The notes beneath the pieces were generated by a model. The model did not search any database. It had not been told where the DNA came from and worked only from the letters and a program-made list of their open reading frames with translations. A DNA stretch of 64,000 bases, from NCBI RefSeq assembly GCF_011694515.1, contig NZ_CP050192.1, positions 3,296,172 through 3,360,171 of the forward strand. The letters are read 5' to 3'. This stretch comes from Mycobacterium sp. DL592 (lineage in GTDB: Bacteria; Actinomycetota; Actinomycetes; Mycobacteriales; Mycobacteriaceae). Made by a program: the position numbers and the translations under genes. This document shows positions 1,591 to 26,001 of the stretch, in pieces; positions within the stretch are counted from its first letter, which is position 1, and every line of letters starts with the position of its first letter.

Positions 1591-2198
1591 CTAGCCGAGC
1601 GCCAGTTCCAGATACTCGTATCGGCGCGCCAGAACGCTGGGCAACCACGGGCCGACCTCGGCGGCTCGGAACCACGACGTCCGCTCGAACAGCTTCGGCA
1701 GTACCGTCATGGCCTCCAGTCGCGCCAGCGGTGCACCAAGACAGAAATGCGCACCCTGCCGAAACTCATGTGGCCCTTGGTGTTCGGCCGGTCGAGCCGG
1801 AACTCGTCGGGATCCTCGAAGTGTTCCGGGTCGCGGTTGGCCGCGCCCCACAGCAGCAGAACCCGGGAACCGGCAGGCACCGCGACACCGGCCAGTTCGG
1901 TATCGCGCAGCACATGGCGGTAATGGGCGCGAAACGGCGGCTCCATCCGCAGCGTCTCCTCGACGAAGACGCCCATCAGCTCGGGATGTTCACGCAACCG
2001 GCCCTGCAACTCAGGGTTGGCGGCCAGAAAGCCCACCGCGACCTCGGTGATGGCCGCCCAGTCGCACACCAGGTAGAAGCCGGAGTCGCCGACCCGGTGC
2101 ACCGGTCCGGCCTCGCGCAGCCGGTTGTAGAAGGGGTACGGGTCCTGGATCGCGGCGGCGCCGAAGAACTCGGCGGGGTCGAGAAGGAGTGCCGTCAC
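1591..2198 (-). pseudogene. Cytochrome P450 remnant: internal deletion plus frameshift
   Basis: From GTG 2198 the frame encodes a P450 N-terminus (DPYPFYNRLREAGPVHRV). After about residue 54 it jumps straight to the late I-helix/K-helix part (FLAANPELQGRLREHPEL, then EETLRM with the ExxR pair), so some 190 residues are missing, with the junction near 2035. The frame then shifts in the haem loop near 1754-1758. One frame reads HMSFGR and continues as nonsense, while the next frame supplies GAHFCLGAPLARLEAM with the haem cysteine and the C-terminus to 1591. One missing base after the FGR codons would restore it. About 210 residues remain of a usual ~400. Its GTG overlaps the TGA of the gene at 2195, so it was once translationally coupled to the hydrogenase operon. 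Confidence 0.88.
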
Positions 2199-3031
2199 GC
2201 GTTAAGGCCTACCAGACCAGGGTCGAAGGTCGCCCGGGAAACGACCGAAGCCGCTGCCGCGGAGACGATCAGCGCCGCATCGTCCTCGTGCCCTTTCGGG
2301 AAGACGATCTCGGCGCTGTCGGGGTCTTCGCGGTGAGCCATCAGCCAGTCATAGAGCAGCCAGTCGACCGCGCACGTCACCGCGAGCGGGTCGGCATCCG
2401 GAGCGTGTGCCGAGGCCACCACCGCCCGCAGTGCGGCGCGGTGCTCCTTGCGGGCGGCCTCCTTGTTGACCCCGGAGCTGTCGAACAGCAGCATCGACAG
2501 GGTCAGCGGGAACCGTTGGCCCGCTTCGGTTCGCACCACCCAGCGACCGCCCTTCCAGGGCTTGTCCTGGTCGACGTGGTGGAACTCGCCGAACCCACCG
2601 ATCACCCCGATAGATGGGTCGTCGAGTTCACCGTCGAACGGTGCGGGTCCGAGCAGACCCAGCGGCTGGCGGGCGCGGATCGAGAACAGCGCGGCGGTCC
2701 CGATGATCTTGCCGGCCCGGACATCGGCACTGAGCCCGGTCTTCTCCAGCGCCGCAGCATATTCGAAACACAACCGGTCCAGTGTGCGGTGCAGTTCCAG
2801 AAGGTCGTCGCGCTCGCTGGCCCCCGCGGGGCCGCGGCCGCCGCCCAGCACCTCACCAAATCGCTTGGCGGCGATGATCAGCGCGTCGTCGAGTGCCTCC
2901 AGGTGGGTGGCGATCAGGCGGTCGGGCTCGTCGTCGTCGGCGACCAGGGCCTGCAGCGTGGCCGCGGCACCCGACGGGGTGGCCCAGTAGAAGCCGATCT
3001 GGTCCTCGGCCTGAACGATCCGGGGCCTCAT
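2195..3031 (-). CDS. Hydrogenase-operon protein of unknown function
   Basis: A 278-residue protein beginning at ATG 3031, which overlaps the stop of the upstream propeller gene as ATGA, so it is translated as part of the Huc operon. It has no signal peptide or membrane segment. The first half is helical and acidic. A middle segment (PIGVIGGFGEFHHVDQ, roughly residues 145-165) and the end (VDWLLYDWLMAHRED) are the most distinctive parts. I do not recognise a catalytic motif. Its position at the end of the operon suggests a role in assembly or regulation of the hydrogenase, but this is inference from context only. It is the last intact gene of the operon before the P450 remnant. Confidence 0.75.
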   Translation of the reverse strand: MRPRIVQAEDQIGFYWATPSGAAATLQALVADDDEPDRLIATHLEALDDALIIAAKRFGEVLGGGRGPAGASERDDLLELHRTLDRLCFEYAAALEKTGLSADVRAGKIIGTAALFSIRARQPLGLLGPAPFDGELDDPSIGVIGGFGEFHHVDQDKPWKGGRWVVRTEAGQRFPLTLSMLLFDSSGVNKEAARKEHRAALRAVVASAHAPDADPLAVTCAVDWLLYDWLMAHREDPDSAEIVFPKGHEDDAALIVSAAAASVVSRATFDPGLVGLNA

Positions 3032-4272
3032 GGCCGCCGCCACAGCATCACCCGGTTGTTTCCCGAGTCCGCCACCGCCAGCATGTCACCGCGCAGGGAC
3101 AGCCCGTAGGGCCAGCACAGCGTGTCCCGCTGCACGGAGGTCCAGCGGTTCTCGCCGTTGGACCCGAAGTCGTGCTGCGCCAGCACATGATCGGCGCCGC
3201 GACCGTCCACGGGCACACCGTCCCACAACAGGATTCGATTGTTGGCGGTATCGGCGACCGCCAACACAGCTGAGTCCATCCCCGAGTCGCTTCGCTCCTG
3301 CCCGCCGGAGTCAAGACATGCCGCGTACGGAAAGCGGAACCGGTCATTGGTGTGCGGGCCGTACGGCCATTCGCCGGCCTCGGCGAAATCCGGTTGCCCC
3401 AGCACCATGTCGGCGTCACGGTCGGCCTGCGGCGGCGGGGACCATCCCAGGACACGGTGGTCGCCGGCATCGGCGATCAGCAGCAGATCGTCGTGGCCGG
3501 TGATGTCGTGCGGCCAGCGGAAACTCGCCGGGCCCGCGGGGCCACCGCGGTTCTCCTCACGGGCGCTGGCATCAGGCTGGCCGAGCACGATGTCGGCAGG
3601 CTGCCCCGGCTCGGGAATCCCGTTGCGCCACCCCAGGACCCGCCGGTTGCCGGTGTCGGCCACCCAGAACGTCGACCCGACGACCGCGATCCCGAAGGGC
3701 CAGTACAGGCTCGACGCCGAGCACTCACCGCCCTGGTTCTCCGACACCGACGAGGCATCGGGTTGACCGAGAATCAGATCGGGTGCCACGTCGCTGGATT
3801 CGGGCACGGTGTTCCACAGCAGGATTCGGTGGTGCCAGGCGTCGGCGACGACCAGCCTGCCCTCGTGCACCAAAACCCCGGTGGGCAGGTTCATCCCCCG
3901 CTCAGGGCCGCGGCCACCCGCGCCGTGGCCCTCTGATTCCCCGTCGGGCTGGCCGAGGACGACGTCGGCGGGTTGCTCGTCGCAACCGGGCATGTCGTGC
4001 CAGATCAGCACCCGGTGGTTTCCGGAGTCGGCCACCACCAGATGCTGCTCGCCGATGAACACGGCGCGTGGTGAGTACATCCACGCCATCGACGGCTTCG
4101 CCGGCGGCAACGCCAGGCCACCGGGCGCCGGGGCGCCCAGCCAAAGGGACGGTGCCCAGCCGCCGGAGAGATCGACTGTCGGTACGCCGTCAGGCTTCGT
4201 GCCCAAGCCACCGGAGCTGCCGGGCCAGCGACCATCGGCCGGGCTGTTGTGCCGAACGGTGTAGCGGCTCAT
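3028..4272 (-). CDS. NHL-repeat beta-propeller protein of the Huc operon
   Basis: A 414-residue protein whose ATG overlaps the hucE stop (ATGA). Six copies of an NHL-type strand pair are visible: VADSGNHRVLIW, VADAWHHRILLW, VADTGNRRVLGW, IADAGDHRVLGW, VADTANNRILLW and VADSGNNRVMLW. Most are preceded by a linker like DVVLGQPD. Six repeats fit one closed six-bladed propeller. No signal peptide or transmembrane helix is seen, so it should be cytoplasmic like Huc. Propellers of this type serve as protein-protein scaffolds, so a role in organising the hydrogenase or its electron acceptor is plausible but unproven. Between blades four and five a short segment (SGGQERSDSG) is encoded by an interspersed DNA repeat. 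Confidence 0.85.
   Translation of the reverse strand: MSRYTVRHNSPADGRWPGSSGGLGTKPDGVPTVDLSGGWAPSLWLGAPAPGGLALPPAKPSMAWMYSPRAVFIGEQHLVVADSGNHRVLIWHDMPGCDEQPADVVLGQPDGESEGHGAGGRGPERGMNLPTGVLVHEGRLVVADAWHHRILLWNTVPESSDVAPDLILGQPDASSVSENQGGECSASSLYWPFGIAVVGSTFWVADTGNRRVLGWRNGIPEPGQPADIVLGQPDASAREENRGGPAGPASFRWPHDITGHDDLLLIADAGDHRVLGWSPPPQADRDADMVLGQPDFAEAGEWPYGPHTNDRFRFPYAACLDSGGQERSDSGMDSAVLAVADTANNRILLWDGVPVDGRGADHVLAQHDFGSNGENRWTSVQRDTLCWPYGLSLRGDMLAVADSGNNRVMLWRRP
3278..3307. repeat. 30-bp interspersed repeat, copy 1 (in propeller gene)
   Basis: Bases 3278-3307 match 19901-19930 at 28 of 30 positions in the same orientation; the differences are A/G at the eighth and T/G at the fifteenth base. 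Here it lies in frame inside the NHL propeller gene and encodes part of a loop between repeats that the other blades lack. It looks like a short inserted sequence tolerated by the protein. Confidence 0.7.
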
Positions 4273-5159
4273 CCGCTGACGCGGACCCAGACGTCACCGT
4301 CGTCGACCCGCAGCGGAAGCTGCTCGAGTTGCGCGCCAGGGGCACTGAGGCACTCCCCCGAGGTCGCGTCGTAGCAGAAGCCGTGCCATGGGCAGGTCAG
4401 CGTGTTGGTGCTGAGGTCGAGCACCGCGTTGTCCAACGGCAGTGCCTCGTGAGCGCATTCGTTGCGGTAGGCCGTCAGCCGTTGTCCGGCGTTGACGACG
4501 ATCACCGGCGTGGCCGCACCGCTCGCGCTGGTCAGTGTCAGCGCCGTCAGGTCGTCGACGGGCAGTTCGGTGGCGGCGCCGACCTTCACCCACCCCTCGG
4601 CGGCCGGGTCCCGGCCGATCAGCAGCGACTCGATCGGGATCAACGTCGGCGTGGGTTCGTTCGGCAGCACCTCGACCGCGCTGATCGACGGAACACCTTG
4701 TACCAGAGCCTCTTCCACGAGGTTGCGCAGCGTCACCGAGGACATCGAGCACCCGTTGCACGCCCCCTCCAGACGCACGAACGCGGTGCCGTCCTCCACC
4801 CGCACCAGGTTCACGTCGCCGCCGTGGCTGTGCAGCTGTGGGCGCACTGTGGCCAGTACCTGGTTGGCGTGAGTGACCGGGTCGGGCCGCACGATCCCGT
4901 GCAGCGACAGCAGCAGGTGCACGGTGGGGTCGTCGACGAGTTCGAACAGCGCCTCGCGGGCGGCCTCGTCGGCGCGCAGCCGGCGCACCATCGTCACCAG
5001 CCCGGCGCGGTGGATCGCTTCGACCGCGGCCTTGAGTTCCTCGGCCACCGCGCGCGCCGCCGGCTCCAGGCCGGCCAGTGCGGCCACCGCATCATCGACG
5101 CGGGTGGCCAGCTCCTCGAAAGTCGGCTCGGTGACGGCACGCTCGGTGGTCGTCGACAT
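4269..5159 (-). CDS. hucE: HucE: NifU-domain/Rieske iron-sulfur protein, predicted electron relay
   Basis: A 296-residue two-domain redox protein. After a helical N-terminus, residues ~100-175 form a NifU C-terminal-type domain with the cluster motif GACNGCS. The C-terminal third is a Rieske domain with paired ligands CAH (in NECAHEALPL) and CPWHGFC, giving the CxH...CxxH pattern for a [2Fe-2S] centre. In M. smegmatis a protein with this architecture, HucE, is encoded with Huc and its loss reduces H2 oxidation, so it is thought to link the hydrogenase to the respiratory chain. The gene lies 3 bases after the TPR gene stop and overlaps the propeller start. It has no membrane anchor or Tat signal. 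Confidence 0.87.
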   Translation of the reverse strand: MSTTTERAVTEPTFEELATRVDDAVAALAGLEPAARAVAEELKAAVEAIHRAGLVTMVRRLRADEAAREALFELVDDPTVHLLLSLHGIVRPDPVTHANQVLATVRPQLHSHGGDVNLVRVEDGTAFVRLEGACNGCSMSSVTLRNLVEEALVQGVPSISAVEVLPNEPTPTLIPIESLLIGRDPAAEGWVKVGAATELPVDDLTALTLTSASGAATPVIVVNAGQRLTAYRNECAHEALPLDNAVLDLSTNTLTCPWHGFCYDATSGECLSAPGAQLEQLPLRVDDGDVWVRVSG

Positions 5160-5162
5160 CAG

Positions 5163-6431
5163 CTACTCCTGCTCGGTATCGGTTCGGTTCAGCGCGGTGT
5201 GCCGGGCGATCTCGTCGAGCACACCGCGCACGGTGCGCATCGCGTCGTGATCACCGAACTCCTCGAAGATGAACCTGGCCTCGTACAGCTTGGCTTTCGC
5301 CTGGTCGAAGACGCCCAGATGCGCCAGCACATTGCCCTGGTTGGCCAGCACCCGCGCCCGGCCCAGCGGGTCGGTGTCACGGTCCCGCGCCTCGAGCACC
5401 GCCTCGTACAGCTCGACCGCCTCAACCAGGTTGTCCGCCTGGTGCTTCGAGGGCGTGTACACCAGCGAATTGGCCAGGTTGAGCTGAACGCTGGCCCACT
5501 GCTCCGGGTACTCCTCGCGGGTGTACACCTTCAGCGCCGAACGCAGCGACTGGGCGGCGACCCCGAGCCGCAGCTGCCCGGAGGCTTCGGTCATCGGCAT
5601 CGTCAGGTACGCGGTGGCCAGGTTTGCGTGCGCCGAGGCCCACAGCAGCGGCGCCTCCTCGCGAAGCACCAGCTGAAGGGCCGAATGGTAGTGCGGTATC
5701 GCGGCATTGAGCAGATCAGGGCGGTCATGGGCCTGTTCGTGCAACAGCGCGGCCACGTTGAGGTGCAGCTCCGCGCGGGCGACGCGGAGACCGTCGGCAC
5801 CCTCGAGCGCGGCCAGCGCCGTCTCGAATCGCCGATAGGCGTCGGGGTTTCCGCTGTGCGCGGCGATCGAGGCAGCCGCCCCGAGCAGCACACCGCACAG
5901 CGGCCGCGAGACCGGCGTGGCCTCGTCGACGGCCTGGTCGAGGAGCCCGGTGGCCAGGATCTCGGCTCGCTCGTTGAACGCCTTGCTGGCCTGCGCCGAC
6001 AGCACCAGAGCGGCAAGCTCCGCGGTGGCACCGTCGAGCTGTGGCGGGGTGTCGGTGTGTCCGAGCGAGAACAGCACCACGTCGACGAGCACGCCGAATT
6101 CACCGAGGGCCAAACGCAATTCGTCGGCGTCCTCGGCGTCGGAGTCCATCACGAATCGGTTGTACCGGCTCACCGGGTCGTCACCGGTCAGGGCAGCAAG
6201 GGCGCCGTCGCGGTCACCGGCGAGGGCCAGCTCGTGGGCGCGCATCACCGCCGGCCACTGCGTGGGCAGTAGCCCCGCCAGCAGCGCCTCACGCGCCCCC
6301 TCGGTGTCCAGGGAGGCGGGAATCAGCATGTAGCCCAATGGAAGCGGGAACGCGCCGAGCGGCTGGGGCCGCACCGCGAGCACGGTCGGATCCACGAGAT
6401 GGGTCGATACATTGGTCGACACAGGGGTCAC
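5163..6431 (-). CDS. TPR-repeat protein of the Huc operon
   Basis: A 422-residue helical protein. I place the start at GTG 6431, because AAGGAAGGG lies about six bases before it and the upstream gene ends at 6445; GTG 6464 is also open but overlaps that gene. The second half contains repeated helical pairs with TPR-like spacing, e.g. ASAHANLATAYLTMP, ASVQLNLANSLVYTP and ARVLANQGNVLAHLGVFDQA. The N-terminal half has no clear motif. TPR solenoids usually bind partner proteins, so it may act as an assembly chaperone or scaffold for Huc. It sits between the small gene at 6445 and hucE with almost no spacing, which supports co-translation. The specific function is not known to me. Confidence 0.78.
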   Translation of the reverse strand: MTPVSTNVSTHLVDPTVLAVRPQPLGAFPLPLGYMLIPASLDTEGAREALLAGLLPTQWPAVMRAHELALAGDRDGALAALTGDDPVSRYNRFVMDSDAEDADELRLALGEFGVLVDVVLFSLGHTDTPPQLDGATAELAALVLSAQASKAFNERAEILATGLLDQAVDEATPVSRPLCGVLLGAAASIAAHSGNPDAYRRFETALAALEGADGLRVARAELHLNVAALLHEQAHDRPDLLNAAIPHYHSALQLVLREEAPLLWASAHANLATAYLTMPMTEASGQLRLGVAAQSLRSALKVYTREEYPEQWASVQLNLANSLVYTPSKHQADNLVEAVELYEAVLEARDRDTDPLGRARVLANQGNVLAHLGVFDQAKAKLYEARFIFEEFGDHDAMRTVRGVLDEIARHTALNRTDTEQE

Positions 6432-6444
6432 GACATCCCTTCCT

Positions 6445-6696
6445 TCATCCGTTGAGCGGGCCACGGATATCGCGCTCGGCGGCGCGTCTGATCAAGTTGG
6501 CGGACAGCTCCGCACGGGCCCTGGTGTTGTGGGTGTCGATGCGCTTGCGCACCACCCCGTCGGCAAACACCACCACGATCTCCACCGCCCAGCGACCGCG
6601 CTCCTCGACCACGACGGTCTGGACGTCGAGCGCTTCGTCGGTCGAGGTGACCTCGGGGACTCGGGTCCTGGGACGAACCGGGGGTTGCTCGCACAT
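6445..6696 (-). CDS. Small hydrogenase-operon protein (83 aa)
   Basis: An 83-residue cytoplasmic protein encoded between the maturation protease and the TPR gene. ATG 6696 is preferred; GTG 6705 and GTG 6699 are in-frame alternatives. A variable N-terminus is followed by a compact beta-rich core (VQTVVVEERGRWAVEIVVVFADGVV), then a helix (AELSANLIRRAAERD). There is no cysteine pair that would suggest HypA or HypC; the single Cys lies at residue 2. I do not recognise the family. Its tight placement, 21 bases after the protease and 13 bases before the TPR start, indicates a real gene in the operon. It may be a small accessory or assembly factor, by context alone. Confidence 0.68.
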   Translation of the reverse strand: MCEQPPVRPRTRVPEVTSTDEALDVQTVVVEERGRWAVEIVVVFADGVVRKRIDTHNTRARAELSANLIRRAAERDIRGPLNG

Positions 6697-6717
6697 CACG
6701 ATCACAGCCCTGGACCT

Positions 6718-7584
6718 TCAGCGCCGATCCAGGGGAATCCGCAGCGCCTTGTGTGCATCGTCCCAGAATGCCTCACGAACGCCCGCCGGGATACGGTCCT
6801 CGAGAACCTCACGCACCAGCACGGCCCGGTCGCCGGCCGGAGTGCGCTGTTTGAGCAACAGCCCGCCGCTGCGCGGCCCCCGCAGCGGGATCAGCCACAG
6901 GTCGTCGTCTCGCAGCACCGCTGCCACGGCGTCGGACGGAAAACGGCTGGCCGCCAACGCTGCATCGACCCGCAGGTATCCGTCTTCGGTGAACTCCACG
7001 GTGGGCTCGGCCTCCGCGCGGGGCCGCAGCGGGGCGAAGAAGTCACGCTCCACCAGCGCGATGACGTCTTCCATCGCGGCCTGTACCGGCTCGGAGAGGT
7101 CGGCGCCCAGGGCGACGTTGGCCGCCTCGATGAGGAACACGGTGATGTCGGTTGGGCAGGCATCGCCCAGCGCCCAACGGGCGAACGGGATGGCGTGGTC
7201 CCACCGGAACGAGTGGGTGTGCAGGCCCTGCAGCGGCGGGAGGTCGTCGAGTTCTTCGCCGGGCAGCCGGTAGATGGTCCCGGCAGCCGCCCCGGTGGCA
7301 GAGGCGTCGATGATCACCACCCGCCCCGCGCCGCGCATCTGGAAGGCGACGTCCATCCCGGCCGTCCCGCCGTCGACCAGCTTGGCGTCGGCCGGCACGC
7401 CGCGCTCCCAGAGGTGGCGGACCAGAACCGGACCGACACCGTCGTCGCCGCGCAGCAGGTTACCGCACCCGACGACGAGTACCGCACACCCAGGCGGCTC
7501 GATATCCAAAGGAGGGGGGTGGATATCGACACCGCCTGGGTCGCTGCGGGATTCGGGTGACCCGGGCTCAGCCGCCGGGCTCAC
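6718..7584 (-). CDS. [NiFe]-hydrogenase maturation endopeptidase with extra C-terminal domain
   Basis: The GTG start overlaps the hucL stop (GTGA). Residues ~33-190 are a HycI/HybD-type endopeptidase that removes the C-terminal tail of the large subunit after nickel insertion. The signature GCGNLLRGDDGVGP lies at ~39-52 with the metal-binding acidic residue as Asp, the second acidic ligand in IIDAS (~93) and the His ligand in LHTHSFRW (~122-124). The protein is 288 residues, whereas family members are usually about 150-180. The surplus is about 95 residues at the C-terminus (from EFTEDGYLRVDAALAA onward) that looks like a separate small domain of unknown role, plus a ~30-residue Pro-rich N-terminal extension. 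The target is expected to be HucL. Confidence 0.87.
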   Translation of the reverse strand: MSPAAEPGSPESRSDPGGVDIHPPPLDIEPPGCAVLVVGCGNLLRGDDGVGPVLVRHLWERGVPADAKLVDGGTAGMDVAFQMRGAGRVVIIDASATGAAAGTIYRLPGEELDDLPPLQGLHTHSFRWDHAIPFARWALGDACPTDITVFLIEAANVALGADLSEPVQAAMEDVIALVERDFFAPLRPRAEAEPTVEFTEDGYLRVDAALAASRFPSDAVAAVLRDDDLWLIPLRGPRSGGLLLKQRTPAGDRAVLVREVLEDRIPAGVREAFWDDAHKALRIPLDRR

Positions 7585-9188
7585 ACCATTCCGTTGATGA
7601 CGAACTTCGAGAGCTCCTTGCCGGTCTTGCCGTCGTAGGCGTGCACGGTGCAGACCAGACAGGAGTCGAAGCTGCGGGCCACGTGACCGAGTTCGACCGG
7701 GTCCTCGGGATCGACGATCGGCGAACCGACGAGTGCCTTCTCGATCGGGCCCAGCACGTCATTGCCGTCGCGGGGTCCGATGTTCCACGCCGTCGGCGTG
7801 ACGACCTGGTAGTTCTTGATCTTGCTGTCCTCGATGACAATCCAGTCGCTCAGCGACCCGCGGGCCGCCTCGGTGGAGCCGAAGCCCTTGCCCTCGGCGT
7901 ATTCGGTGGGCTTGGTGTAGAAGCTCTCCTTGAGGTCGAGCTGGTCCAGCCAGCCCTTGACCCACTTGTAGTACTTCGGGCCCTCGTGCATGCGGGCCAG
8001 CTGCCGGGTCAGCACGCTCGGCCCGATCTTGTTCAGGATGTCGACGAACAACGGGTCGTTGTCCTGGTGCGGTGCGGCATTGGGGCCGCCCGCGGCCATC
8101 CGGCGGGCCAGCGGGCCGGCTTCCAGCGGGATGGTGCCCAGGTCGCCGACGGCGTAGCGCGGCGACTTCGCCCAGCTGTACTTGCCTTGCTTACGGCCCT
8201 CTTCGGGGTCGATCGGGATGGTCTCGCCCTCGAACGGGTGCAACGGCTTGCTGCCCTGATAGAACGAGTGGCTGGTGTCCTCGCGGACGTTGGCCTGATC
8301 GAACTCGTGCCACTGGCCCTGGGCGTAGATGCCGCCGCGGCCGATCAGCGCCGCGTTGCGGCCGTCGATGGTGGGGTTCTCATACAGCGTCGGGTCGAAG
8401 TAGGTGCCGGTGGCGATGTAGTTGCCCACCCCCTGGCCGTACTTGTCCAGGCCGATGTCGAGGCAGTAGCGGATGAAGAAGCCGCAGTCGCTGTTGTAGT
8501 GCGACTCGTTCTCGTCGACCCAGGCCAGTACGTCTTCCCAGGTCTTGTTCTCCAGCCAGCGGTTGACGCTGCAGCCCAGCCATGCGCCCTCGAGCCAGTT
8601 GTCCTTCCAGTGCTCGAGAATCGCGATCGAGCGCGTGACATCCGACAGCGTCGGCGCGCACATCACCCCGCCGGGCACCATGAAGCTGGAGTGCGGCCAC
8701 TGCCCGCCGAAGATGGCGTAGACCTCGACCGGCTTGTTCGACAGCACCACTCCCTTCTGGTAGCTGGTGCCGACGTAGGGCGCGAAGCGGCGGACGGCCT
8801 CGTCGTACAGCTTGGATTTGGCGTAGTTCTTGTTGGTCAGGTCGATGGCGAACAGCGCGTAGAAATAGCGCGGAATCGATTGCAGGGTCTCGCAGGCCTG
8901 GGCGATGTTGCGGACCAGGGTGGCGTTGGCCGGCATGTGGGTGCGCCACGCGGTGTCCAGGGCGTAGGCGGACTTGTACAGGTGGCTGCCGCCGCAGATC
9001 CCGCAGATGCGCGGACAGACGACGAGGCCGGCCTGCGGGTCCTTGCCCCGGAGGATGATCTCGAAGCCGCGGAACATCGCCGCCTCGGTCCAAGCCGACG
9101 TGACGACCCCGTCATCGATGGTGACGCGGACGTCGAGGTCACCCTCGACCCGTCCCAGCGGGCTGACGTACAGGTCAAGTGCGGTCAT
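7581..9188 (-). CDS. hucL: HucL: group 2a [NiFe]-hydrogenase large subunit
   Basis: The catalytic subunit, 535 residues from ATG 9188. That start has TGGAGG eight bases upstream; a longer frame to 9218 lacks such a site. The N-terminal nickel motif is RICGICGGSH (Cys62, Cys65, His69), and the C-terminal one is DSCLVCTVH (Cys510, Cys513, His516). The 19 residues after His516 are the tail expected to be cut off by the protease encoded next. Together with HucS it oxidises H2 at a Ni-Fe centre. Group 2a enzymes of mycobacteria (Huc) have high affinity and act on atmospheric H2. There is no signal peptide, consistent with a cytoplasmic-face enzyme. The protease gene overlaps its stop. Confidence 0.95.
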   Translation of the reverse strand: MTALDLYVSPLGRVEGDLDVRVTIDDGVVTSAWTEAAMFRGFEIILRGKDPQAGLVVCPRICGICGGSHLYKSAYALDTAWRTHMPANATLVRNIAQACETLQSIPRYFYALFAIDLTNKNYAKSKLYDEAVRRFAPYVGTSYQKGVVLSNKPVEVYAIFGGQWPHSSFMVPGGVMCAPTLSDVTRSIAILEHWKDNWLEGAWLGCSVNRWLENKTWEDVLAWVDENESHYNSDCGFFIRYCLDIGLDKYGQGVGNYIATGTYFDPTLYENPTIDGRNAALIGRGGIYAQGQWHEFDQANVREDTSHSFYQGSKPLHPFEGETIPIDPEEGRKQGKYSWAKSPRYAVGDLGTIPLEAGPLARRMAAGGPNAAPHQDNDPLFVDILNKIGPSVLTRQLARMHEGPKYYKWVKGWLDQLDLKESFYTKPTEYAEGKGFGSTEAARGSLSDWIVIEDSKIKNYQVVTPTAWNIGPRDGNDVLGPIEKALVGSPIVDPEDPVELGHVARSFDSCLVCTVHAYDGKTGKELSKFVINGMV

Positions 9189-9236
9189 GTGTGGTTCCTC
9201 CAAAAGTGTTGAGCACAAGCAGTTCTCGGGTGAGGG

Positions 9237-10208
9237 CTAGACGACGAACATGTCCTCTTTGGACCACTGTGGCGCCGCGATACGAGCGGCGGCAGCGTGT
9301 GCCATGTAGGTGAGGTGGTCGGATCCCTCCGGAACTTCCTTGGGGATCACCCCGCCGACCTTCTGCGTCTTGAACAGCGTCCCCGGCGCCAAGTCGAAGT
9401 GCGGGAACTCCGGCTCGGTGCACCCCAGGCACGGCATGCCGGCACGGGTCTTCGACGACTGCCGGTTCCACAGGATGCGGTTGCACGGCGAATGCGTCAT
9501 CGGACCGCGGCAGCCGAACTCGTAGAACAGGCAGCCGGTACGGGTGCCTTCGCCGAACGACATCGTCGACTGCTTGTATTCGAAGAATTGCACACGGGTG
9601 CAACCGGTTTGGGTGAACGTCTTGAAGAACGTCTCGGGGCGGTGCAGTTCGTCCAGGGCGATGTCGCCGGCGCGCCCGGTGGCCAGCGCCACGATGATCT
9701 GGGTGATCCAGTCCGGGTGGGCGGGGCAGCCGGGGATGTTGATGACGGGCAGGCCCATCTTGGAGCGGAAGTCCGGCCCGAGGAATCCGCCCTTGTCGCG
9801 CTTGTGGAACTGCAGACCGGTCGAGGCCGACGGGTTGGGCTCCATCGCGGGAATGCCGCCCCAGCAGGCGCAGTCGCCGATGGCGACCACGATCTGGGCC
9901 GCGCCGGCCAGGTCGGTCACCCAGTCCTTCATCGGGCGGTCGGCGAACATGTCCATCCGGCCGGTGCCGTTGGGCGCCTCGATGACGGTGCCCTCGAAGA
10001 CGAAGATGTCCAGCGGGCGGTCACCTTTGGCGCAGTCCCAGAACACCTTCTGGGCGTTCTTGCCCAGTTCGAGTCCCAGCGACGGATGCCAGATCAGGTC
10101 CAGCCCGAAGTCGACGATGAGGTCGACGACGTTGGGTTCCTCGGCGTTGAGGAACGACATCGTGTTGCCACTACATGCCCCTCCCTGAAACCACAGAACG
10201 GAAGCCAT
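9237..10208 (-). CDS. hucS: HucS: group 2a [NiFe]-hydrogenase small subunit
   Basis: The electron-transfer subunit, 323 residues, starting at ATG 10208 after GAGAGGAG. It lacks the twin-arginine signal of periplasmic small subunits, so it stays in the cytoplasm. Cysteines fall into the usual cluster regions: Cys12 (GGACSGN), Cys115 (DCACWGG) and Cys161 (IPGCPAHPDW) around the proximal site, then Cys226, 233, 242, 260 and 263 for the medial and distal sites. The canonical second Cys of the N-terminal CxxC is absent, leaving three proximal ligands. This matches the published M. smegmatis Huc structure, which carries three [3Fe-4S] clusters. hucL follows after 48 bases. Confidence 0.95.
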   Translation of the reverse strand: MASVLWFQGGACSGNTMSFLNAEEPNVVDLIVDFGLDLIWHPSLGLELGKNAQKVFWDCAKGDRPLDIFVFEGTVIEAPNGTGRMDMFADRPMKDWVTDLAGAAQIVVAIGDCACWGGIPAMEPNPSASTGLQFHKRDKGGFLGPDFRSKMGLPVINIPGCPAHPDWITQIIVALATGRAGDIALDELHRPETFFKTFTQTGCTRVQFFEYKQSTMSFGEGTRTGCLFYEFGCRGPMTHSPCNRILWNRQSSKTRAGMPCLGCTEPEFPHFDLAPGTLFKTQKVGGVIPKEVPEGSDHLTYMAHAAAARIAAPQWSKEDMFVV

Positions 10209-10304
10209 GGGCGAACTCCTCTCAGATGACGGCCTTGGGCGAGGCCGACGGGGGCTGGTGAATGACAGATCGGACAGCAGGCGAACAGGCGGGCTCGGTG
10301 GTCA

Positions 10305-10841
10305 CTACCGGCCCACTCGGCGGCCGAAGGACTTGGCGACGGCGAGCAGGAAGCCCAGGCCGCGGGCGACGTCGGGATCCTTGGTCGCCTTGTACAAGCC
10401 GTAGAGGCCCTTCGGCGGGTTGGCTGCGCCGGCCTTGCCGTCGACCAGCGCATCGCCGACCGAGGCGAGCAGCTGCACGGTCTGCGGATCGGTGAGGCTG
10501 GAGTTCAGCAGGGTGCTCAGCGCGGGCGTCGCGCCGACCAGCGAGCCGGACAGGGTCGCCAGGCTGGCGGCCAGGCTTTGCAGGTCGACACCCTTGAACG
10601 CGTCCGCGCCGGGGATTCCGGCAGCCACCGAGGCGCCGCGGAACTCAGAGACCGCAGAGGAGACGCTGTTGGTGATCGTGTCGCCGCGCCGGACGAAACC
10701 GTCCAAGCCACTGACCAGCACAGCAAGCACATCGGCGTGATCGAGCAGGGTGTTGAGGGCTTCGGCGACCTTGGGGTCGTCCAACCGGTCTCGCACCGAA
10801 TCCGCGGGGGTGACCGCAACTGCCTGCCCGTTAGACGTCAT
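10305..10841 (-). CDS. hucM: HucM-like DUF1641 scaffold protein, first gene of the Huc operon
   Basis: A 178-residue protein from ATG 10841, which has AGGAGG seven bases upstream. The N-terminal half has two amphipathic helices (DDPKVAEALNTLLDHAD and LAVLVSGLDGFVRRGD). The C-terminal part (GLYGLYKATKDPDVARGLG) is characteristic of DUF1641 proteins. In M. smegmatis the gene directly before hucS encodes HucM, which assembles eight HucSL units around a central stalk and delivers menaquinone. Position and family suggest this is its orthologue, although I cannot align the sequences here. The long Ala/Leu/Ser-rich middle (VDLQSLAASLATLSGSLVGA) fits a hydrophobic oligomerising helix. Confidence 0.78.
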   Translation of the reverse strand: MTSNGQAVAVTPADSVRDRLDDPKVAEALNTLLDHADVLAVLVSGLDGFVRRGDTITNSVSSAVSEFRGASVAAGIPGADAFKGVDLQSLAASLATLSGSLVGATPALSTLLNSSLTDPQTVQLLASVGDALVDGKAGAANPPKGLYGLYKATKDPDVARGLGFLLAVAKSFGRRVGR

Positions 10842-10868
10842 GCAAACCTCCTGGGGAGCCACCCACGG

Positions 10869-10887
10869 CACACCTATGGCAGGTGTG
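10869..10887. promoter_or_regulatory. Inverted repeat upstream of hucM, candidate operator
   Basis: CACACCTATGGCAGGTGTG is a perfect 7-bp inverted repeat with a 5-base spacer, ending 28 bases before the hucM start and in the control region shared with the divergent AraC-type gene. It could be a regulator binding site or a leader hairpin. No protein is assigned to it. Confidence 0.45.
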
Positions 10888-11005
10888 GCTTCAATCACAA
10901 AAGTAGACCTATGGGGCTGTTGTGCCTATCGCTTTCGCGCAGTCGCTGTCAGGATTGCGAAGAGATGACCGCGCTGAAACGACGGTGATGTTTAGGAGGC
11001 TGGAC

Positions 11006-11071
11006 GTGTCGAACGCAAGCAAACTTGTGTCGGCCGACCTGCCGCAGGGCCCGGAGTTCGGCGGGCGCTGA
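11006..11071 (+). CDS. Tiny upstream ORF coupled to the AraC-type gene
   Basis: GTG 11006 follows a strong ribosome site (AGGAGG at 10994-10999) and opens a 21-codon frame that ends in TGA 11069-11071, overlapping the ATG of the regulator (TGATG). The regulator itself has only a weak site of its own, so its translation probably depends on termination of this leader. The peptide begins VSNASKLVSADLPQGP and has no recognised motif. An alternative reading is that it is the true N-terminus of the regulator separated by a frameshift. The strong Shine-Dalgarno sequence is the main support for translation. Confidence 0.5.
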   Translation: MSNASKLVSADLPQGPEFGGR

Positions 11072-12132
11072 TGTCGCGGCTCACGAGATTGGGCTACATC
11101 GACGTCCGGCGCACCAGCAACCCGGTTCGCCGCAAGGTCCGCTCCCGGGGTGTGCCGCCGGCGCTAGCAAACAACGAAATCTTCTACACCGAGGACGTGA
11201 AGTCCGCGGCGCGGCTCATCGCCAAGACGCTGGGACCGCTGAATCTGACCGTGGGACCCGACGAAGTCCCCGGCTTCGCCGCCACCATGCACGGGGTGCG
11301 CCTGCGCAACGTCAGCCTGCTCTACCTCGACCTGCACGTCGCGGCCGCGATTGACATCCCCATGCTGGGACCGCATTACGCGGTGCACATGCCGATGAAC
11401 GGGCGTGCGCTCAGCGAGCATCGCGGCCGAACCTTCGAGGCCAACACCATCTGCTCGGTGGTCAGCAGCCCCGGCGCTTCTCTGCGAATGGTGTTCGACC
11501 ACGACTCGCCGCAGCTGATCATCCGCATCGAGGAGCGCGCGCTGGCGGCACACCTGACCCGGCTGCTCGGCCGCGGCATGGACCGACCGCTGATCTTCGA
11601 ACCCGAATTCGACATGGCCAGCGAAGCCGCCATGCGCTGGCACGCCGCCGTGCAGCTGATCCACACCGAGGTCTTCCATGAGGGCTCACTGATCCAGCGC
11701 GGGCAGGGGATCGGCGCCGTCGAGGAGTTCGTCATCAGCAGCCTGCTGCACCTGCAGCCCTCGAACTATTACGCCGAATTCCTCGCACCGGCCCCGCCCG
11801 ATCAGCGCCGCGCCGTGGTGCAGAACGCCATGAACTACATCGAGGACCATCTCGCCGAACGCATCACGATGGAAGCCGTGGCCAAGGCAGTGCACATGAG
11901 CGTGCGGTCGATCCAGCAGGGCTTCCGCGAGGAGCTGGGCATGACGCCGATGACCTATGTGCGGGAGCGCCGGCTCGAGCGGGTGCACGAGGAACTCACC
12001 GACGCCATCCCCGCCGACGGGGTGACGGTGACCCAGGTCGCCGAGCGGTGGGGCTTCAACCACCTCGGCAGCTTCGCCGTCGAGTACCGAAAGCGTTGGG
12101 GCGAAGCACCTTCGGAGACCCTGCGCCGCTGA
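11071..12132 (+). CDS. AraC-family transcriptional regulator, divergent from the Huc operon
   Basis: A 353-residue regulator. Residues ~40-210 resemble the AraC-binding-like-2 sensor domain seen in many mycobacterial AraC proteins. The C-terminus carries two helix-turn-helix units: the first around ITMEAVAKAVHMSVRSIQQGF and the second around VTVTQVAERWGFNHLGSFAVEYRKRWGEAPSE, whose ending is the typical AraC signature. It is transcribed away from hucM across about 165 bases that contain an inverted repeat, so it may control the hydrogenase operon or itself. That link is positional only. The ATG 11071 start overlaps the stop of a 21-codon leader. Confidence 0.88.
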   Translation: MSRLTRLGYIDVRRTSNPVRRKVRSRGVPPALANNEIFYTEDVKSAARLIAKTLGPLNLTVGPDEVPGFAATMHGVRLRNVSLLYLDLHVAAAIDIPMLGPHYAVHMPMNGRALSEHRGRTFEANTICSVVSSPGASLRMVFDHDSPQLIIRIEERALAAHLTRLLGRGMDRPLIFEPEFDMASEAAMRWHAAVQLIHTEVFHEGSLIQRGQGIGAVEEFVISSLLHLQPSNYYAEFLAPAPPDQRRAVVQNAMNYIEDHLAERITMEAVAKAVHMSVRSIQQGFREELGMTPMTYVRERRLERVHEELTDAIPADGVTVTQVAERWGFNHLGSFAVEYRKRWGEAPSETLRR

Positions 12133-12211: not shown

Positions 12212-13417
12212 CTAGCCGTCGACGGGAATGCTCACCGTCACGGTGGTGCCTGCACCGGGGCGCGAGCGGACCTTCACCGAGCCGCCGACCAACTCCGCCC
12301 GCTCGGCCATCGACAACATGCCGTAACCGCTCGAGGACGACACCGGTCCGGTCTCGAAGCCCACTCCGTTGTCGACGACCTCGAGCCGGGCCATCCCGTC
12401 GGCGACGGTGAACGTGACGGTGGCGACCAGCGCCCGGGAATGCTTGACGACATTCTGAAAGCATTCCTGCGCAATGCGATACAGCGCCACCTCGATGTGC
12501 TCTGGCAGCCGCTCGTCGGCCAGATGCAACTCCAGGTCCACCTCCGGGATGGAGGTGGCCAGGCTGGCCAGTCCGCCGACCAGGCCGAGATCATCGAGCA
12601 CCGGCGGGCGCAGCCCGCTGATCGCCGAGCGCGCCTCGGCCAGGGTGAGATCGACCAGATCCCGCGCCTTCTCCAGTTGCTCGGCGGCGGACGGCTGGTC
12701 ACCGTCGTCGACGGCGCGGGCGGCGGCATCGAGCCGGTAGGTCAGGCCAACGAGGCGCTGAGAGATGCCGTCGTGGATATCACCGGCCAGCCGGCGTCGC
12801 TCGCTTTCCTGCGCCGCGATCACCTGCTCGGCGAAGTTCTCATGTGCGCGTTCGCGAGCCGACAGCTGACGGTGCAGCCGGGCCTGGTGCAGGGCACCGG
12901 CGATGAGCCTGCCGATGATCAGCAGCAGCTCGATATCGCGCGGGGTGAAGTCGCGGCGCTCGATGTTGTGCACGTTGAGCACCCCGACCAGACCGCCCGG
13001 CTCGGTTTCCATGGGTACCGACGCCATCGAGGTGAAATCCTTGCCACGCAAGGCCGCGATCGGCACATAGCGCGGATCGGCCTCCTTGTCGCTGACGATC
13101 ACCACCGGCTCACGATGACTGGCCACCCAACCCGACACCCCCGAACCCAGGGGCAGCCGAACCAACCCCACCTGTTCGTCGAACGGCGGGGTGGCCCCGG
13201 CCAGCGTCAGCGAGCGGTCGGTGTCGTCGAGCACATGCACAAAGCACACGTCGGAAGCCGTTGCCGCGGTGATCATCTGGGCCACCGCAGCGGCCATGGG
13301 TTCCACCCCGGGACCCGAGGACGTTGCGGCGATGATGTCGAGCAGCAGTGCCACTTCCCGGTCGGCATCGACCAGACTGTGCATCGCATGCGGACTCACA
13401 CCGCGGGAGGCGCTCAT
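12212..13417 (-). CDS. Sensor histidine kinase (GAF, HisKA_3, HATPase)
   Basis: A 401-residue soluble kinase of the NarX/DevS type. Residues ~20-180 form a GAF-like sensor domain (LPLGSGVSGWVAS, PMETEPGGLVGVLNVHN). The HisKA_3 dimerisation helix has the phospho-acceptor in ERRRLAGDIHDGISQRL (His215). The ATPase domain shows the N-box QECFQNVVKHS, the G1-box VVDNGVGFE and the G2-box GYGMLSMAERAE. There are no membrane helices, so it senses a cytoplasmic signal or a bound ligand. The ATG overlaps the stop of the response regulator gene (ATGA), and the pair forms a two-component system. The signal cannot be read from the sequence, and the AraC gene converges on it from the other side. Confidence 0.92.
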   Translation of the reverse strand: MSASRGVSPHAMHSLVDADREVALLLDIIAATSSGPGVEPMAAAVAQMITAATASDVCFVHVLDDTDRSLTLAGATPPFDEQVGLVRLPLGSGVSGWVASHREPVVIVSDKEADPRYVPIAALRGKDFTSMASVPMETEPGGLVGVLNVHNIERRDFTPRDIELLLIIGRLIAGALHQARLHRQLSARERAHENFAEQVIAAQESERRRLAGDIHDGISQRLVGLTYRLDAAARAVDDGDQPSAAEQLEKARDLVDLTLAEARSAISGLRPPVLDDLGLVGGLASLATSIPEVDLELHLADERLPEHIEVALYRIAQECFQNVVKHSRALVATVTFTVADGMARLEVVDNGVGFETGPVSSSSGYGMLSMAERAELVGGSVKVRSRPGAGTTVTVSIPVDG

Positions 13418-14064
13418 TGAAAGATGCCCTCGCGCAACGCTGTTGCCGCGGCACTGGTCCGATCGCTGACACCGAGCTTGCGGTAGATGGAGCTGAGGTG
13501 AGTCTTGACGGTCTCCTCGCCGATCACCAGCTTCGAGGCGATACCGCGATTGGACAGGCCCGTCACCACCAGCGACAGGATCTCACTCTCGCGCTGAGTC
13601 AGGCCGTGCCGTGCGCCGGGCCAGAACTGGTCGCTCTGCAGCCGGGCCGCCGTCTCAGCCGCGCGGGCGGCCAGCCCGGCGTCGATCGCGGTCGACCCGG
13701 CGTGCACACCCTCGAGCTGGCGCACCAGCTCGTCACTGCTGATGCCTTTGAGCAAATAGCCGGAGGCGCCCACCCGCAGGGCCTGGAACAGATACTGCTC
13801 GTCGTCGTAGACCGACAGCAGGATCACCTTCTGCCCGGGGTCGCGTTCGCGGATCTCCCGGCACAGGTCCAGGCCGCTGGCGCCCTGCATGCGGACATCG
13901 CAGAGCACGATGTCGGGACGCAGCTCGGCGATCACCGCCATCGCCTTCTCCGCACCGACCGCCTCACCCACCACCGCGACCCGGTCGGCGAACGGCGTGA
14001 GCATCGCCTTGAGACCCTCGATGACCATTTCGTGGTCGTCGACGAGCACCACCCGCACCGTCAT
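13414..14064 (-). CDS. NarL/FixJ-family response regulator
   Basis: A 216-residue regulator encoded just before its kinase. The receiver domain has the acidic pair in VLVDDHEM (Asp9-Asp10), the phospho-acceptor in DIVLCDVRM (Asp56) and the conserved Lys in GASGYLLKG. The C-terminal LuxR-type helix-turn-helix reads LTQRESEILSLVVTGLSNRGIASKLVIGEETVKTHL in sequence, with TVKTHLSSIYRKLGV as recognition helix. The gene order, response regulator then kinase with a 4-base overlap, ensures balanced expression. The 202 bases upstream to the divergent HAD gene presumably hold its promoter, but no clear operator is seen. Targets are unknown. Confidence 0.93.
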   Translation of the reverse strand: MTVRVVLVDDHEMVIEGLKAMLTPFADRVAVVGEAVGAEKAMAVIAELRPDIVLCDVRMQGASGLDLCREIRERDPGQKVILLSVYDDEQYLFQALRVGASGYLLKGISSDELVRQLEGVHAGSTAIDAGLAARAAETAARLQSDQFWPGARHGLTQRESEILSLVVTGLSNRGIASKLVIGEETVKTHLSSIYRKLGVSDRTSAAATALREGIFQ

Positions 14065-23436: not shown

Positions 23437-24945
23437 CTACGGATTCGGCGGGCAGGTGAACACCGGGCCCGGCGGGAGCGTGCCCTGCATGAAGAACCTC
23501 ATCAGAGCATCCTCTGCGCAGGTGTTCTGCGCGGAGGCGATGTGGCCCTGTGCTGGAGCGACCACCAGGGTCGAGGACTTGATCTGGCCCTGCAGCGACT
23601 GAGCCCACGCCAGCGGGGTGGCGGGGTCGCCGGTGGTGCTGAGAATCAGCACCGGCCCTGCGCCCGTGGCCTGCACCGGACCGGGTCCGCGCACCGACGG
23701 CACCGGCCACATCTCGCACGGTTGCAGCGACCATGCCCGGTTGGCGCCGCTGATCGGGCTTTCCATCGCCCACACCTGCGCCAGCCGCTCTGGTTTGTCG
23801 GGATTGCGGTGGGTCGCGAAGTCGACGCACATCACCGACAGGTACTCCGAGTCGGCCGGATTGACCATCAGGTCCTTCGAGTAGGCGGCCTCGAGCACCC
23901 CGGGCCACTGCCCGGCCAGTGCCTGCTGCAGTACCTTGCGCAGGCTGGGCCACCCCGAAACCGGGAAGTACTGCGAGGATTCCACCAGTGCCAGCATCCG
24001 GGCCCCGGACAACTTGCGTCCGTCGGCGCCGACATAGGGTTGCTGGTCGAGGTTGCCGATGAGACCGGAAATCTGTTGTAGCGCTTGACCACTCGGGCCG
24101 GTCAGCGGGCAGCCCGGGCGGCGCAGGCAGTCGTCGACGAACGCGGCGATGCTGCGCTGCATACCCTGGGCCTGGCCGTGGCGGACCTCTTGGTAGTCCA
24201 GCATCGGGTCCAGCACCGAATCCAGCACGATGCGGTCGGTCTTGCCGGGGAACATGTCGGCATAGAGGGCGCCGAGGAATGTTCCGTATGAGTAGCCGAG
24301 ATAGTTGATCTGGTCGAAGCCCATCGCTTTTCGGATCTCGTCCATGTCGCGGGCGACGTCGGCGGTGCCCACGTGCGCGAGGGCGTCGCCGAACTGAGCC
24401 CGGCAGGCGCTGCCGATTCCGGCGGCGAGGTCCTTGGCCCGGGCGACGCCGGCTTGGGCCACCGGAGCGCTGGGCTGGTCGAAGATGGCCTGGCGCTGCG
24501 TGTCGTCGAGGCATTGCAGCGCCGGTTTGGATCCGCCGACGCCGCGCGGGTCGAAGGAGACCACCGTGTAGGTGTCGGTGAACTTCTCGAAGTACTCACG
24601 ATTGGTCCGCAGGTCGTTGACGCCGCTGATGCCGGGACCGCCCGGGTTGGTCACTAGCAACCGGGGTTTGGCGGCTTTCGACGGGATCCGGATCACCGGG
24701 ACGGTGAAGCTCGGTCCGTTCGGCCGGCCGTAGTCGAACGGCACTGTGAGGGTGGAACATTCAACGCCCGGAGAGGACCCGTTCGAATCGGGCATCGATT
24801 CGGTCATGATGCACGGACCCCACGGAGCCAGCGCGATCGCCGGCGCCGCCTGGGGCTGGCGCACCGGAGCCGAGCATGCCCCGAGGACCACCGCGGTGAG
24901 AGCCGCAGCCGCGGCCCACCGCCTCACCCCCGACGAAGCTGACAC
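23437..24945 (-). CDS. Lipoprotein alpha/beta-hydrolase, TAP/prolyl-aminopeptidase-like
   Basis: A 502-residue exported hydrolase. The N-terminus RRWAAAAALTAVVLGACS is a lipoprotein signal with lipobox LGAC. The hydrolase domain has an oxyanion-type NPGGPGISG, nucleophile elbow GYSYGTFLG and a C-terminal TAP-like domain with LILSTTGDPATPLAWA (catalytic Asp) and APAQGHIAS (catalytic His). This architecture is that of Streptomyces tripeptidyl aminopeptidases SlpD/SlpE and mycobacterial Hip1/CaeA-like proteins, which act at the cell envelope on peptides or esters. The lipid anchor would hold it on the outer face of the membrane. It is convergent with the MmcQ gene. The substrate is unknown. Confidence 0.9.
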   Translation of the reverse strand: MSASSGVRRWAAAAALTAVVLGACSAPVRQPQAAPAIALAPWGPCIMTESMPDSNGSSPGVECSTLTVPFDYGRPNGPSFTVPVIRIPSKAAKPRLLVTNPGGPGISGVNDLRTNREYFEKFTDTYTVVSFDPRGVGGSKPALQCLDDTQRQAIFDQPSAPVAQAGVARAKDLAAGIGSACRAQFGDALAHVGTADVARDMDEIRKAMGFDQINYLGYSYGTFLGALYADMFPGKTDRIVLDSVLDPMLDYQEVRHGQAQGMQRSIAAFVDDCLRRPGCPLTGPSGQALQQISGLIGNLDQQPYVGADGRKLSGARMLALVESSQYFPVSGWPSLRKVLQQALAGQWPGVLEAAYSKDLMVNPADSEYLSVMCVDFATHRNPDKPERLAQVWAMESPISGANRAWSLQPCEMWPVPSVRGPGPVQATGAGPVLILSTTGDPATPLAWAQSLQGQIKSSTLVVAPAQGHIASAQNTCAEDALMRFFMQGTLPPGPVFTCPPNP

Positions 24946-24990
24946 GCCCTACCTTGTAACACGTCCGGCGCGCGCCGGCACGGAACTCGA

Positions 24991-26001
24991 TCAGATGGCG
25001 TCGGGATCCTCGGCCAACGCGTCGGCGGCCCGCTGCGACAGTTCGACCGCGATGCGCGCCCATTGGTCGGTGGCCCCGGCCAGTCCGCACGCCGGACTGA
25101 TGCCGACCCGGTCCCGAACCACGGGGCGGGGAAAGCCGATTCGGTCGGTGATGGCGACGGCGCCGGCCGCCACCTCCTCGGCCGACGGGCGGCGCTGGGG
25201 TGCGGTGGTCGGCAGCAGTCCCAGCACGACGGCGCGCCCGGAGTCCAGGAACTCGCCCAGACCATCGAGATCGGCATCACCGAAGGTCGCGACGTCGAGT
25301 GACACAGCGTGAATGGTGCTGCGCTGCAATACCTTCCAGGGAATCTCGGTTGCGCAGCAGTGCAGCATGACCTCGGTGCCCGCGGCGGCGACGCACGTGT
25401 CGATCAGGCTGACGGCGACGGCCTCGTCGACCGGGTGCACGGGATTGAGCCGACTCACCCCGGCCAGCCGGCCGGCCAGCGCCGCAGGCAGCACCGGCTC
25501 GTCGTATTGCACCACCACCGTGGTGCCCAACCGCCTGGCCAACTCGGCGCGGTGCACCGCCACCCCCTCACCCAGTGAGGCGGCCAGGTCCCGAAGGGCA
25601 CCGGGGTCGGTGATCGCCCGATGGCCGTTGGGCAGCTCCAGCCCGGCGGCCAGGGTGATCGGTCCGGGCGCCTGCACCTTGACGGTGCGTCCGGCCACCG
25701 CGCTGCCCGCCTTCTCCCAGGCCTCTTCGAGGGCGTCGATGTCCTCGTCGAGCAGGCTGGCTGCGCGGCGCATCACCGCACCGGGCCGCGCGGTGATGCG
25801 GTATCCACGCGGGACGGTGTCGAGGGCGATGTCGATGAGCAGCGCACCGGCGCGCCCGATCATGTCGGCGCCCACGCCGCGGGCGGGCAGTTCGACGAGG
25901 TGTGGCAGCCGGTGCAACTCGCCGACCACGATCTCGGCGGCCTCCCGCGGTGTCGAACCGGGCCAGGAACCGACGCCGGTGGCCGCCGCGAAAACGCTCA
26001 T
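24991..26001 (-). CDS. Cobalamin-independent methionine synthase-like protein (MetE C-terminal-type)
   Basis: A 336-residue protein from ATG 26001, with FAAATGVGSWPGSTPREAAEIV directly following. It corresponds to the C-terminal barrel of MetE, with LHCCATEIPWKVL, where His and Cys would bind zinc, and AGLELPNGHRAITDPG. It has only about half the length of true MetE (about 750 residues) and lacks its N-terminal half. It therefore belongs to the short archaeal/actinobacterial group whose methyl donor and acceptor are uncertain. M. tuberculosis Rv3015c is the counterpart by position, from memory. It lies between the lipoprotein hydrolase and the divergent LpqA-like gene. Confidence 0.82.
   Translation of the reverse strand: MSVFAAATGVGSWPGSTPREAAEIVVGELHRLPHLVELPARGVGADMIGRAGALLIDIALDTVPRGYRITARPGAVMRRAASLLDEDIDALEEAWEKAGSAVAGRTVKVQAPGPITLAAGLELPNGHRAITDPGALRDLAASLGEGVAVHRAELARRLGTTVVVQYDEPVLPAALAGRLAGVSRLNPVHPVDEAVAVSLIDTCVAAAGTEVMLHCCATEIPWKVLQRSTIHAVSLDVATFGDADLDGLGEFLDSGRAVVLGLLPTTAPQRRPSAEEVAAGAVAITDRIGFPRPVVRDRVGISPACGLAGATDQWARIAVELSQRAADALAEDPDAI

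Follow-up and report, generated by a model that had tools for sequence, protein, structure and literature searches.

Huc, the group 2a [NiFe]-hydrogenase of Mycobacterium smegmatis, is encoded by the operon MSMEG_2261-2270 and is represented by several solved structures (PDB 7UTD, 7UUR, 7UUS and 8DQV). According to the available text of its description, the purified enzyme contains HucS, HucL and HucM only and by itself reduces menaquinone analogues, and deletion of hucM preserves the activity with loss of the large oligomer (PMC10017518). A related gene arrangement occurs in Nostoc, where genes for a TPR protein, a NifU-like protein and an NHL-repeat protein stand in an extended hyp operon (asr0689-alr0693) between hupSL and hypF; a role of their products in assembly of the hydrogenase small subunit was proposed in 2008 and 2011, as the accessible portions of these papers relate (PMC2408588, PMC3126725), and NHL proteins were noted together with group 2a enzymes in the available part of a 2020 report (PMC7784904). 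Here we describe a 64,000-nucleotide stretch of the Mycobacterium sp. DL592 genome (hereafter the window), in which nine minus-strand open reading frames (ORFs), running from 10841 down to 2195 in the order HucM-HucS-HucL-HucD-sm86-TPR-HucE-NHL-X278, constitute an intact Huc operon. Its HucM, HucS and HucL are closely similar to those of the solved M. smegmatis enzyme, and its TPR, NifU-like and NHL genes follow the Nostoc order.

For a mycobacterium there is nothing unusual in the operon as such, and the set of its extra genes is both known and conserved. From the gene content, its conservation and the promoter elements, we infer what seems to us the best and, on balance, a probable explanation of the whole: TPR, HucE and NHL would form a conserved assembly module, HucD-C (the C-terminal domain of HucD), sm86 and X278 would be further helpers, and the product of a divergent AraC-family gene would control transcription. 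This regulator with its operator, and a clade of relatives devoid of HucM, matter more than the operon itself.

The huc operon and its conservation

The structural subunits were identified by phmmer against solved structures, hucM (10305..10841, minus strand; scaffold or stalk subunit, DUF1641) matching 7uus chain Q with E 1.9e-48, hucS (9237..10208, minus; small subunit) 7uur chain D over 322 aligned residues with E 1.5e-219, and hucL (7581..9188, minus; large subunit) 7uus chain A over 515 aligned residues with E 0; Pfam likewise recognises the small and the large NiFe subunit. The HucM start is taken as ATG 10841, as in an earlier note on this DNA, because of the AGGAGG at 10847-10852 and because the longer alternative called by the ORF program (GTG 10898) falls within the proposed promoter. 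HucL carries the CxxC motifs, RICGICG and SCLVC, expected of a Huc-type group 2a enzyme and extends 19 residues beyond the His at which the solved chain ends, so that the gene encodes an unprocessed precursor. The protease gene hucD adjoins hucL, and HucD would cut off this C-terminal peptide. By homology with M. smegmatis, HucS and HucL would oxidise H2, and HucM would gather HucS/HucL units and connect them to menaquinone; the enzyme is thus predicted to oxidise trace H2 from air.

The product of hucD (6718..7584, minus) comprises a HycI-type maturation protease (approximately residues 1-180; TIGR00072 above cut-off, HycI in Pfam) and HucD-C (approximately residues 186-288), which matches stand-alone ORFs in other loci; judged from these matches, HucD is a fusion of a protease with a domain that other loci encode separately. 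The next gene, sm86 (6445..6705, minus), encodes a conserved protein of 86 residues from an upstream GTG, rather than the 83 previously given, and is fused to HucD-C in Sulfobacillus; among loci, protease, HucD-C and sm86 occur in varying fusions. There follow the TPR gene (5163..6464, minus), with only a weak TPR_12 match below the family cut-off, hucE (4269..5159, minus; PF01106 and PF00355, with solved NifU-like and Rieske relatives), the gene of an NHL-repeat protein expected to fold as a beta-propeller (3028..4272, minus; PF01436) and, last, X278 (2195..3031, minus), which has indeed 278 residues from ATG 3031 and whose model is mainly helical (pLDDT 86.6) and gave no convincing fold match. 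Pfam has no family for sm86 or X278. Neither a HupH nor a rubredoxin (HupI) family, both presumably contained in Pfam, was found among the nine proteins (E 0.01), and the likeness to the rhizobial HupGHIJK chaperones that was looked for is therefore lacking.

That nine genes overlap or nearly touch here is borne out by the sequence: there are 4-bp overlaps at each of HucL/HucD, HucE/NHL and NHL/X278, a 20-bp overlap at sm86/TPR, and gaps of 3 bp (TPR-HucE), 12 bp (HucD-sm86), 48 bp (HucS-HucL, given the HucL start at ATG 9188) and 96 bp (HucM-HucS). The description of the operon as complete holds for its structural part but not for the hyp maturation genes: in the source genome, a single contig of 5.10 Mb, the single hypD match belongs to a hypE-D-C-F / hypA-B cluster that is separated from hucM by about 72 kb. 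The same genome holds, with its one hypD match genome-wide, a second, different NiFe hydrogenase large-subunit gene at 2.43 Mb (G000:C1:2429017-2430150). Right after X278, at 1591-2198 on the minus strand, lies a cytochrome P450 remnant, in which Pfam recognises one P450 stretch in a 163-residue ORF and, by eye, N- and C-terminal pieces stand in different frames with the middle gone.

Full-length HucL (E 0) was found in 34 of 118 genomes of the genus, and the window, the 33 other HucL-positive genomes and a Mycobacterium chimaera plasmid (L045) yielded 35 mycobacterial loci. Among these, sm86 is present in 32, TPR in 33, HucE in 32, NHL in 31 and X278 in 31, all absences of accessory genes lying at contig edges save that of sm86 in L076. 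The full gene order is seen in 27 loci and the other eight agree up to contig limits, barring the lack of HucM in one clade and of sm86 in L076, so that the order is not due to chance. The extra genes are therefore conserved in other Huc loci, contrary to the possibility, raised earlier, of their absence. X278 occurs in 33 of the 118 genomes, all within the 34 with HucL, and the one exception, G008, ends inside the operon; among 396 genomes drawn from across the phylum, it was found in five, all of them belonging to the eight whose HucL is at least 73% identical. In G275 and G307, X278 lies upstream, before AraC and HucM, so that its linkage to huc outlasts rearrangement.

Both ends of the operon are visible in 31 mycobacterial loci, in 24 of which X278 directly follows NHL, as in the window; in the other seven, including the M. 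chimaera plasmid, hyp genes stand between them, with DUF6390 in all seven and both a SIS-domain gene and a HypC-like gene of 236 residues in six. On the plasmid (L045:20662-22025 and 24563-25318), the HypC-domain 236-residue protein, the SIS-domain protein and DUF6390 are encoded among hyp genes. This long-layout operon of M. chimaera (L045/L079) is carried by a 438-kb plasmid next to RuBisCO, cbbX, phosphoribulokinase and other Calvin-cycle genes, and the locus also has an AraC gene together with a pair of genes for a GAF kinase and a response regulator.

A divergent AraC-family gene and the huc promoter

Divergently from hucM, at 11071..12132 on the plus strand, lies a gene of the AraC family (PF14525, AraC_binding_2, and PF12833, HTH_18), whose product is a candidate direct regulator of huc. 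The gene was found (E 1e-40) in 29 of the 118 genus genomes, in a single copy each and always together with HucL; it also neighbours huc on the M. chimaera plasmid and in each of the five other actinobacterial loci. The intergenic region contains a conserved 37-bp element, the putative operator, made up of two similar parts 20 bp apart on the minus strand: a distal part, TTCGCAATCCTGACAG, at 10946..10961, and a proximal part, TGCGCGAAAGCGATAG, at 10926..10941. Nineteen bp after the operator stands a -10-like hexamer, TACTTT (10900..10905, minus), adjoined by a CRP-like site, TGTGATTGAAGCCACA (10884..10899, minus).

In the 29 mycobacterial loci that have both AraC and HucM in the stretch, the operator differs at no more than 7 of 32 specified positions in every intergenic region, as against at least 11 in shuffled ones; this full score is partly by construction, because the element was derived from the same loci. 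More independent tests are its uniqueness genome-wide and the hexamer. The operator is unique in its own genome and, with up to 3 mismatches, occurs in 24 of the 118 genus genomes, once each and by position at huc, the reversed pattern being found in none. A TANNNT hexamer, sought at 15-23 bp, follows the operator by 19-20 bp in 29 of 29 loci, compared with 6% of shuffles. AraC/XylS-type activators bind tandem direct half-sites. The divergent AraC-family protein would most likely control huc transcription via the two similar sites, the proximal of which would overlap the -35 region.

Three observations weigh against this reading. Firstly, the two parts of the operator are alike at no more than 8-11 of 16 positions, and some of the sequences contain other spots with equal or better agreement, which makes the tandem half-sites a matter of interpretation. 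Secondly, the mycobacterial operator as such was not found in the five other actinobacterial loci with AraC (10-16 mismatches); in one of them, L116, a repeated CGATAG is kept at the 20 bp spacing. Thirdly, a promoter pull-down in M. smegmatis is reported, in the available text, to have yielded no specific huc-binding regulator (PMC13098282).

In 20 of the 29 loci, including the window, the hexamer is followed by the CRP-like site (TGTGAN6TCACA with one mismatch), as against 0.08 of 34 shuffled sequences at up to one mismatch, so that a CRP-type site would stand next to the -10 element in most relatives. The site is lacking in L069, a locus with a HucM that shares 99.4% identity over 172 residues with the solved M. 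smegmatis HucM. As far as the available texts go, Crp1 and Crp2 do not bind the M. smegmatis huc promoter and the direct regulators of huc were called unidentified in 2026 (PMC13098282, PMC13289019). Given the lack of the site in L069 and the lack of Crp1 and Crp2 binding in M. smegmatis, control of huc by CRP may be lineage-specific.

In one mycobacterial clade, stalk, regulator and operator are all missing. Four loci (L067, L076, L077 and L078) have no hucM, AraC gene or operator before hucS, and L075, at a contig edge, is likewise listed with this clade. A search for HucM that was positive in G000, G041 and G077 did not find it in these four genomes or in G003 (best E 0.013), and AraC is missing from the same five genomes. 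The HucL tree unites the five in a single clade (100/99), which is nested among relatives of the window that do have HucM. All five assemblies are fragmented (2.5-4.0 Mb, 72-93% complete), so that loss of HucM is backed by locus structure in four and by absence alone in G003. X278 was found in all five, in G111 just as a piece at a contig end. Since the M. smegmatis enzyme keeps its activity on deletion of hucM, an active Huc without HucM is feasible, and this clade would provide a natural test of the purpose of the stalk. Outside the genus, AraC and HucM are not strictly tied, as the actinobacterial locus L115 has the AraC-family gene and no HucM was detected there before hucS.

Taken together, these data can be read as follows: the AraC-family protein regulates huc directly, in Mycobacterium as in other Actinobacteria, as a class II activator whose two sites overlap -35; in most mycobacteria, carbon control is added by a CRP-type site located where transcription starts, a site lost in the M. 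smegmatis lineage; and one small-genome clade lost HucM, regulator and operator together, keeping most assembly genes as far as the contigs show, so that a stalkless Huc exists in nature. To this joint reading, with all its parts, we would give an even chance. A competing proposal, which we consider unlikely, is that huc is controlled by the neighbouring pair of a GAF-domain sensor histidine kinase (12212..13417, minus) and its partner, a LuxR-type response regulator (13414..14064, minus), the AraC-family gene regulating something else. The kinase gene does lie beside huc in some relatives too, being next to AraC in the window, L046, L047, L048 and L052, and it stands directly upstream of hucS in three of the HucM-less loci just described, which lack AraC. 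Yet it was found in just 5 of the 29 AraC-positive mycobacterial loci (whose stretches end about 1.5 kb past AraC), and AraC and operator are confined to genomes with HucL.

Our literature search, mostly without subscription papers and without the earlier paper that established the huc promoter, found no prior description of the AraC regulator, the operator, the HucM-less clade or the HucD fusion, and an earlier mention of the AraC-family gene is possible. The gene and its operator narrow the question of direct huc control, left open in 2026, to one gel-shift and one deletion.

Accessory proteins: subunits or assembly factors

The earlier note counted the extra gene products as unexplained subunits, and this is probably wrong: the purified enzyme has three proteins, the Nostoc homologues have a proposed assembly role and a hucE deletion has already been published. 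We consider it rather probable that TPR, HucE and NHL are assembly factors rather than subunits. Since purified Huc contains HucS, HucL and HucM only, the accessory proteins would not be stable subunits; the TPR protein, HucE with its NifU and Rieske domains, and the NHL protein would most likely supply or protect the iron-sulphur clusters of HucS, with HucD-C, sm86 and X278 as putative additional helpers. According to the available text of the 2019 study, deletion of hucE lowers H2 oxidation in the same way as loss of a structural subunit, oxidation is eliminated when hhyE is also deleted, and the artificial acceptor nitroblue tetrazolium does not make up for the loss of hucE (PMC6883350). 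The subunit-like phenotype and the lack of compensation fit a maturation defect.

The second line of evidence is the distribution of the module beyond Actinobacteria, where Proteobacteria, Cyanobacteria, Thermus and Sulfobacillus also have TPR, HucE and NHL together with Huc. Five plasmid loci (Thermus, Sulfobacillus, Hymenobacter, Sphingopyxis and Bradyrhizobium) all have TPR and NHL, and four of them have HucE, which was not found in the Hymenobacter stretch; over the ten loci other than the mycobacterial and genome-contig ones, TPR was found in ten and NHL in nine. A further 80 loci on genome contigs, kept as the best among 422 confirmed relatives and hence a non-exhaustive set, are by title mostly from Proteobacteria and Cyanobacteria. 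TPR was found in 68 of them, NifU in 62, Rieske in 56, NHL in 61 and HucD-C in 59, and sequence profiles detected HucM, sm86 and X278 in none, with the reservation that distant forms of HucM could escape such profiles, because archaeal HysM is reported to be just 18% identical to HucM (PMC11018855, available text). Retention of the module where HucM is undetected counts for a role in assembly. In 61 of the 69 loci with any of TPR, NifU or NHL, hypF lies on the strand of the module; the module is on the strand opposite to hucSL in 23 of the 69, and 18 of the 23 have hypF. Eleven of the 80 stretches have no TPR, NifU or NHL. When nine genomes with part or all of the module missing near HucL were rechecked (G401, two with a partial module and six from the eleven), TPR and NHL were found no more than about 3 kb apart in seven, outside the first stretch and in some perhaps just past its end. 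In two alphaproteobacterial plasmid loci (L043:11790-12499 and L044:13686-14337), two small ORFs, annotated hypothetical, lie between hucL and the protease gene.

Several points tell against assignment of the module to assembly. A place next to hyp genes is indirect evidence, and 46 of the 80 loci have the module on the hucSL strand. Many of these stretches are truncated where their contig stops, and at E 1e-4 the profiles may also pick up general proteins of the TPR and NifU families. Two of the rechecked Huc-positive genomes depart from the rule, G401 having TPR and no detected NHL, and G505 neither. In L076, TPR directly follows HucD without sm86. Finally, the discoverers of HucE read its Rieske-type motif as that of a possible electron carrier, in the available text (PMC6883350).

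This last point leads to the proposal that HucE accepts electrons from HucS as a transfer partner, with the TPR and NHL proteins perhaps keeping it in place, and that the extra genes encode loosely bound subunits. The combination of NifU and Rieske domains would suit such a partner, and the 2019 authors favoured an electron-acceptor role; however, the purified enzyme without HucE still reduces menaquinone analogues, and nitroblue tetrazolium is no substitute for the lost protein, so that we regard the proposal as distinctly unlikely. Alternatively, the extra proteins could serve assembly of the oligomer or delivery of quinone via HucM, as their genes form a single row with hucM in the 27 complete mycobacterial loci; this is very improbable, since TPR, HucE and NHL are present in the genome-contig loci without detectable HucM, and the HucM-less mycobacterial loci L067 and L077 keep sm86 and X278. 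That the extra genes are mere passengers, a view for which we found no argument, is hardly credible given their conservation across 35 mycobacterial loci and several phyla and of the confinement of X278 and AraC to the HucL-positive genomes of the genus. The shift from subunits to assembly factors matters for the making of Huc in other hosts.

Comparison with described systems

In contrast to the operon of the window, the cyanobacterial loci have no detected HucM, sm86 or X278. The small Nostoc ORFs asr0689 and asr0690 are not matched to sm86, the asr proteins themselves not having been compared; models of sm86 and HucD-C gave no convincing match close to the TPR genes in typical cyanobacterial loci, and HucD-C was found in L173, L183 and L184. 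The group 2a locus of Parageobacillus thermoglucosidasius shares DUF1641, hydrogenase, protease, hypothetical, TPR, NifU and NHL genes and differs in having hypA and hypB inside the operon and, as far as the available text goes, in listing no candidate for X278 between NHL and hypC (PMC12976888).

The operon MSMEG_2261-2270 would end, from its published range, with MSMEG_2270 as the counterpart of X278. L069, the locus with the HucM nearly identical to the solved one, has the gene order, AraC gene and operator of the window; it differs in the position of the hyp genes, which follow X278 there and are distant from hucM in the genome of the window, and in lacking the CRP-like site. Lastly, the layout of the putative operator resembles that of AraC/XylS-type activators, with two sites about two helical turns apart, of which the proximal falls on the presumed -35 region.

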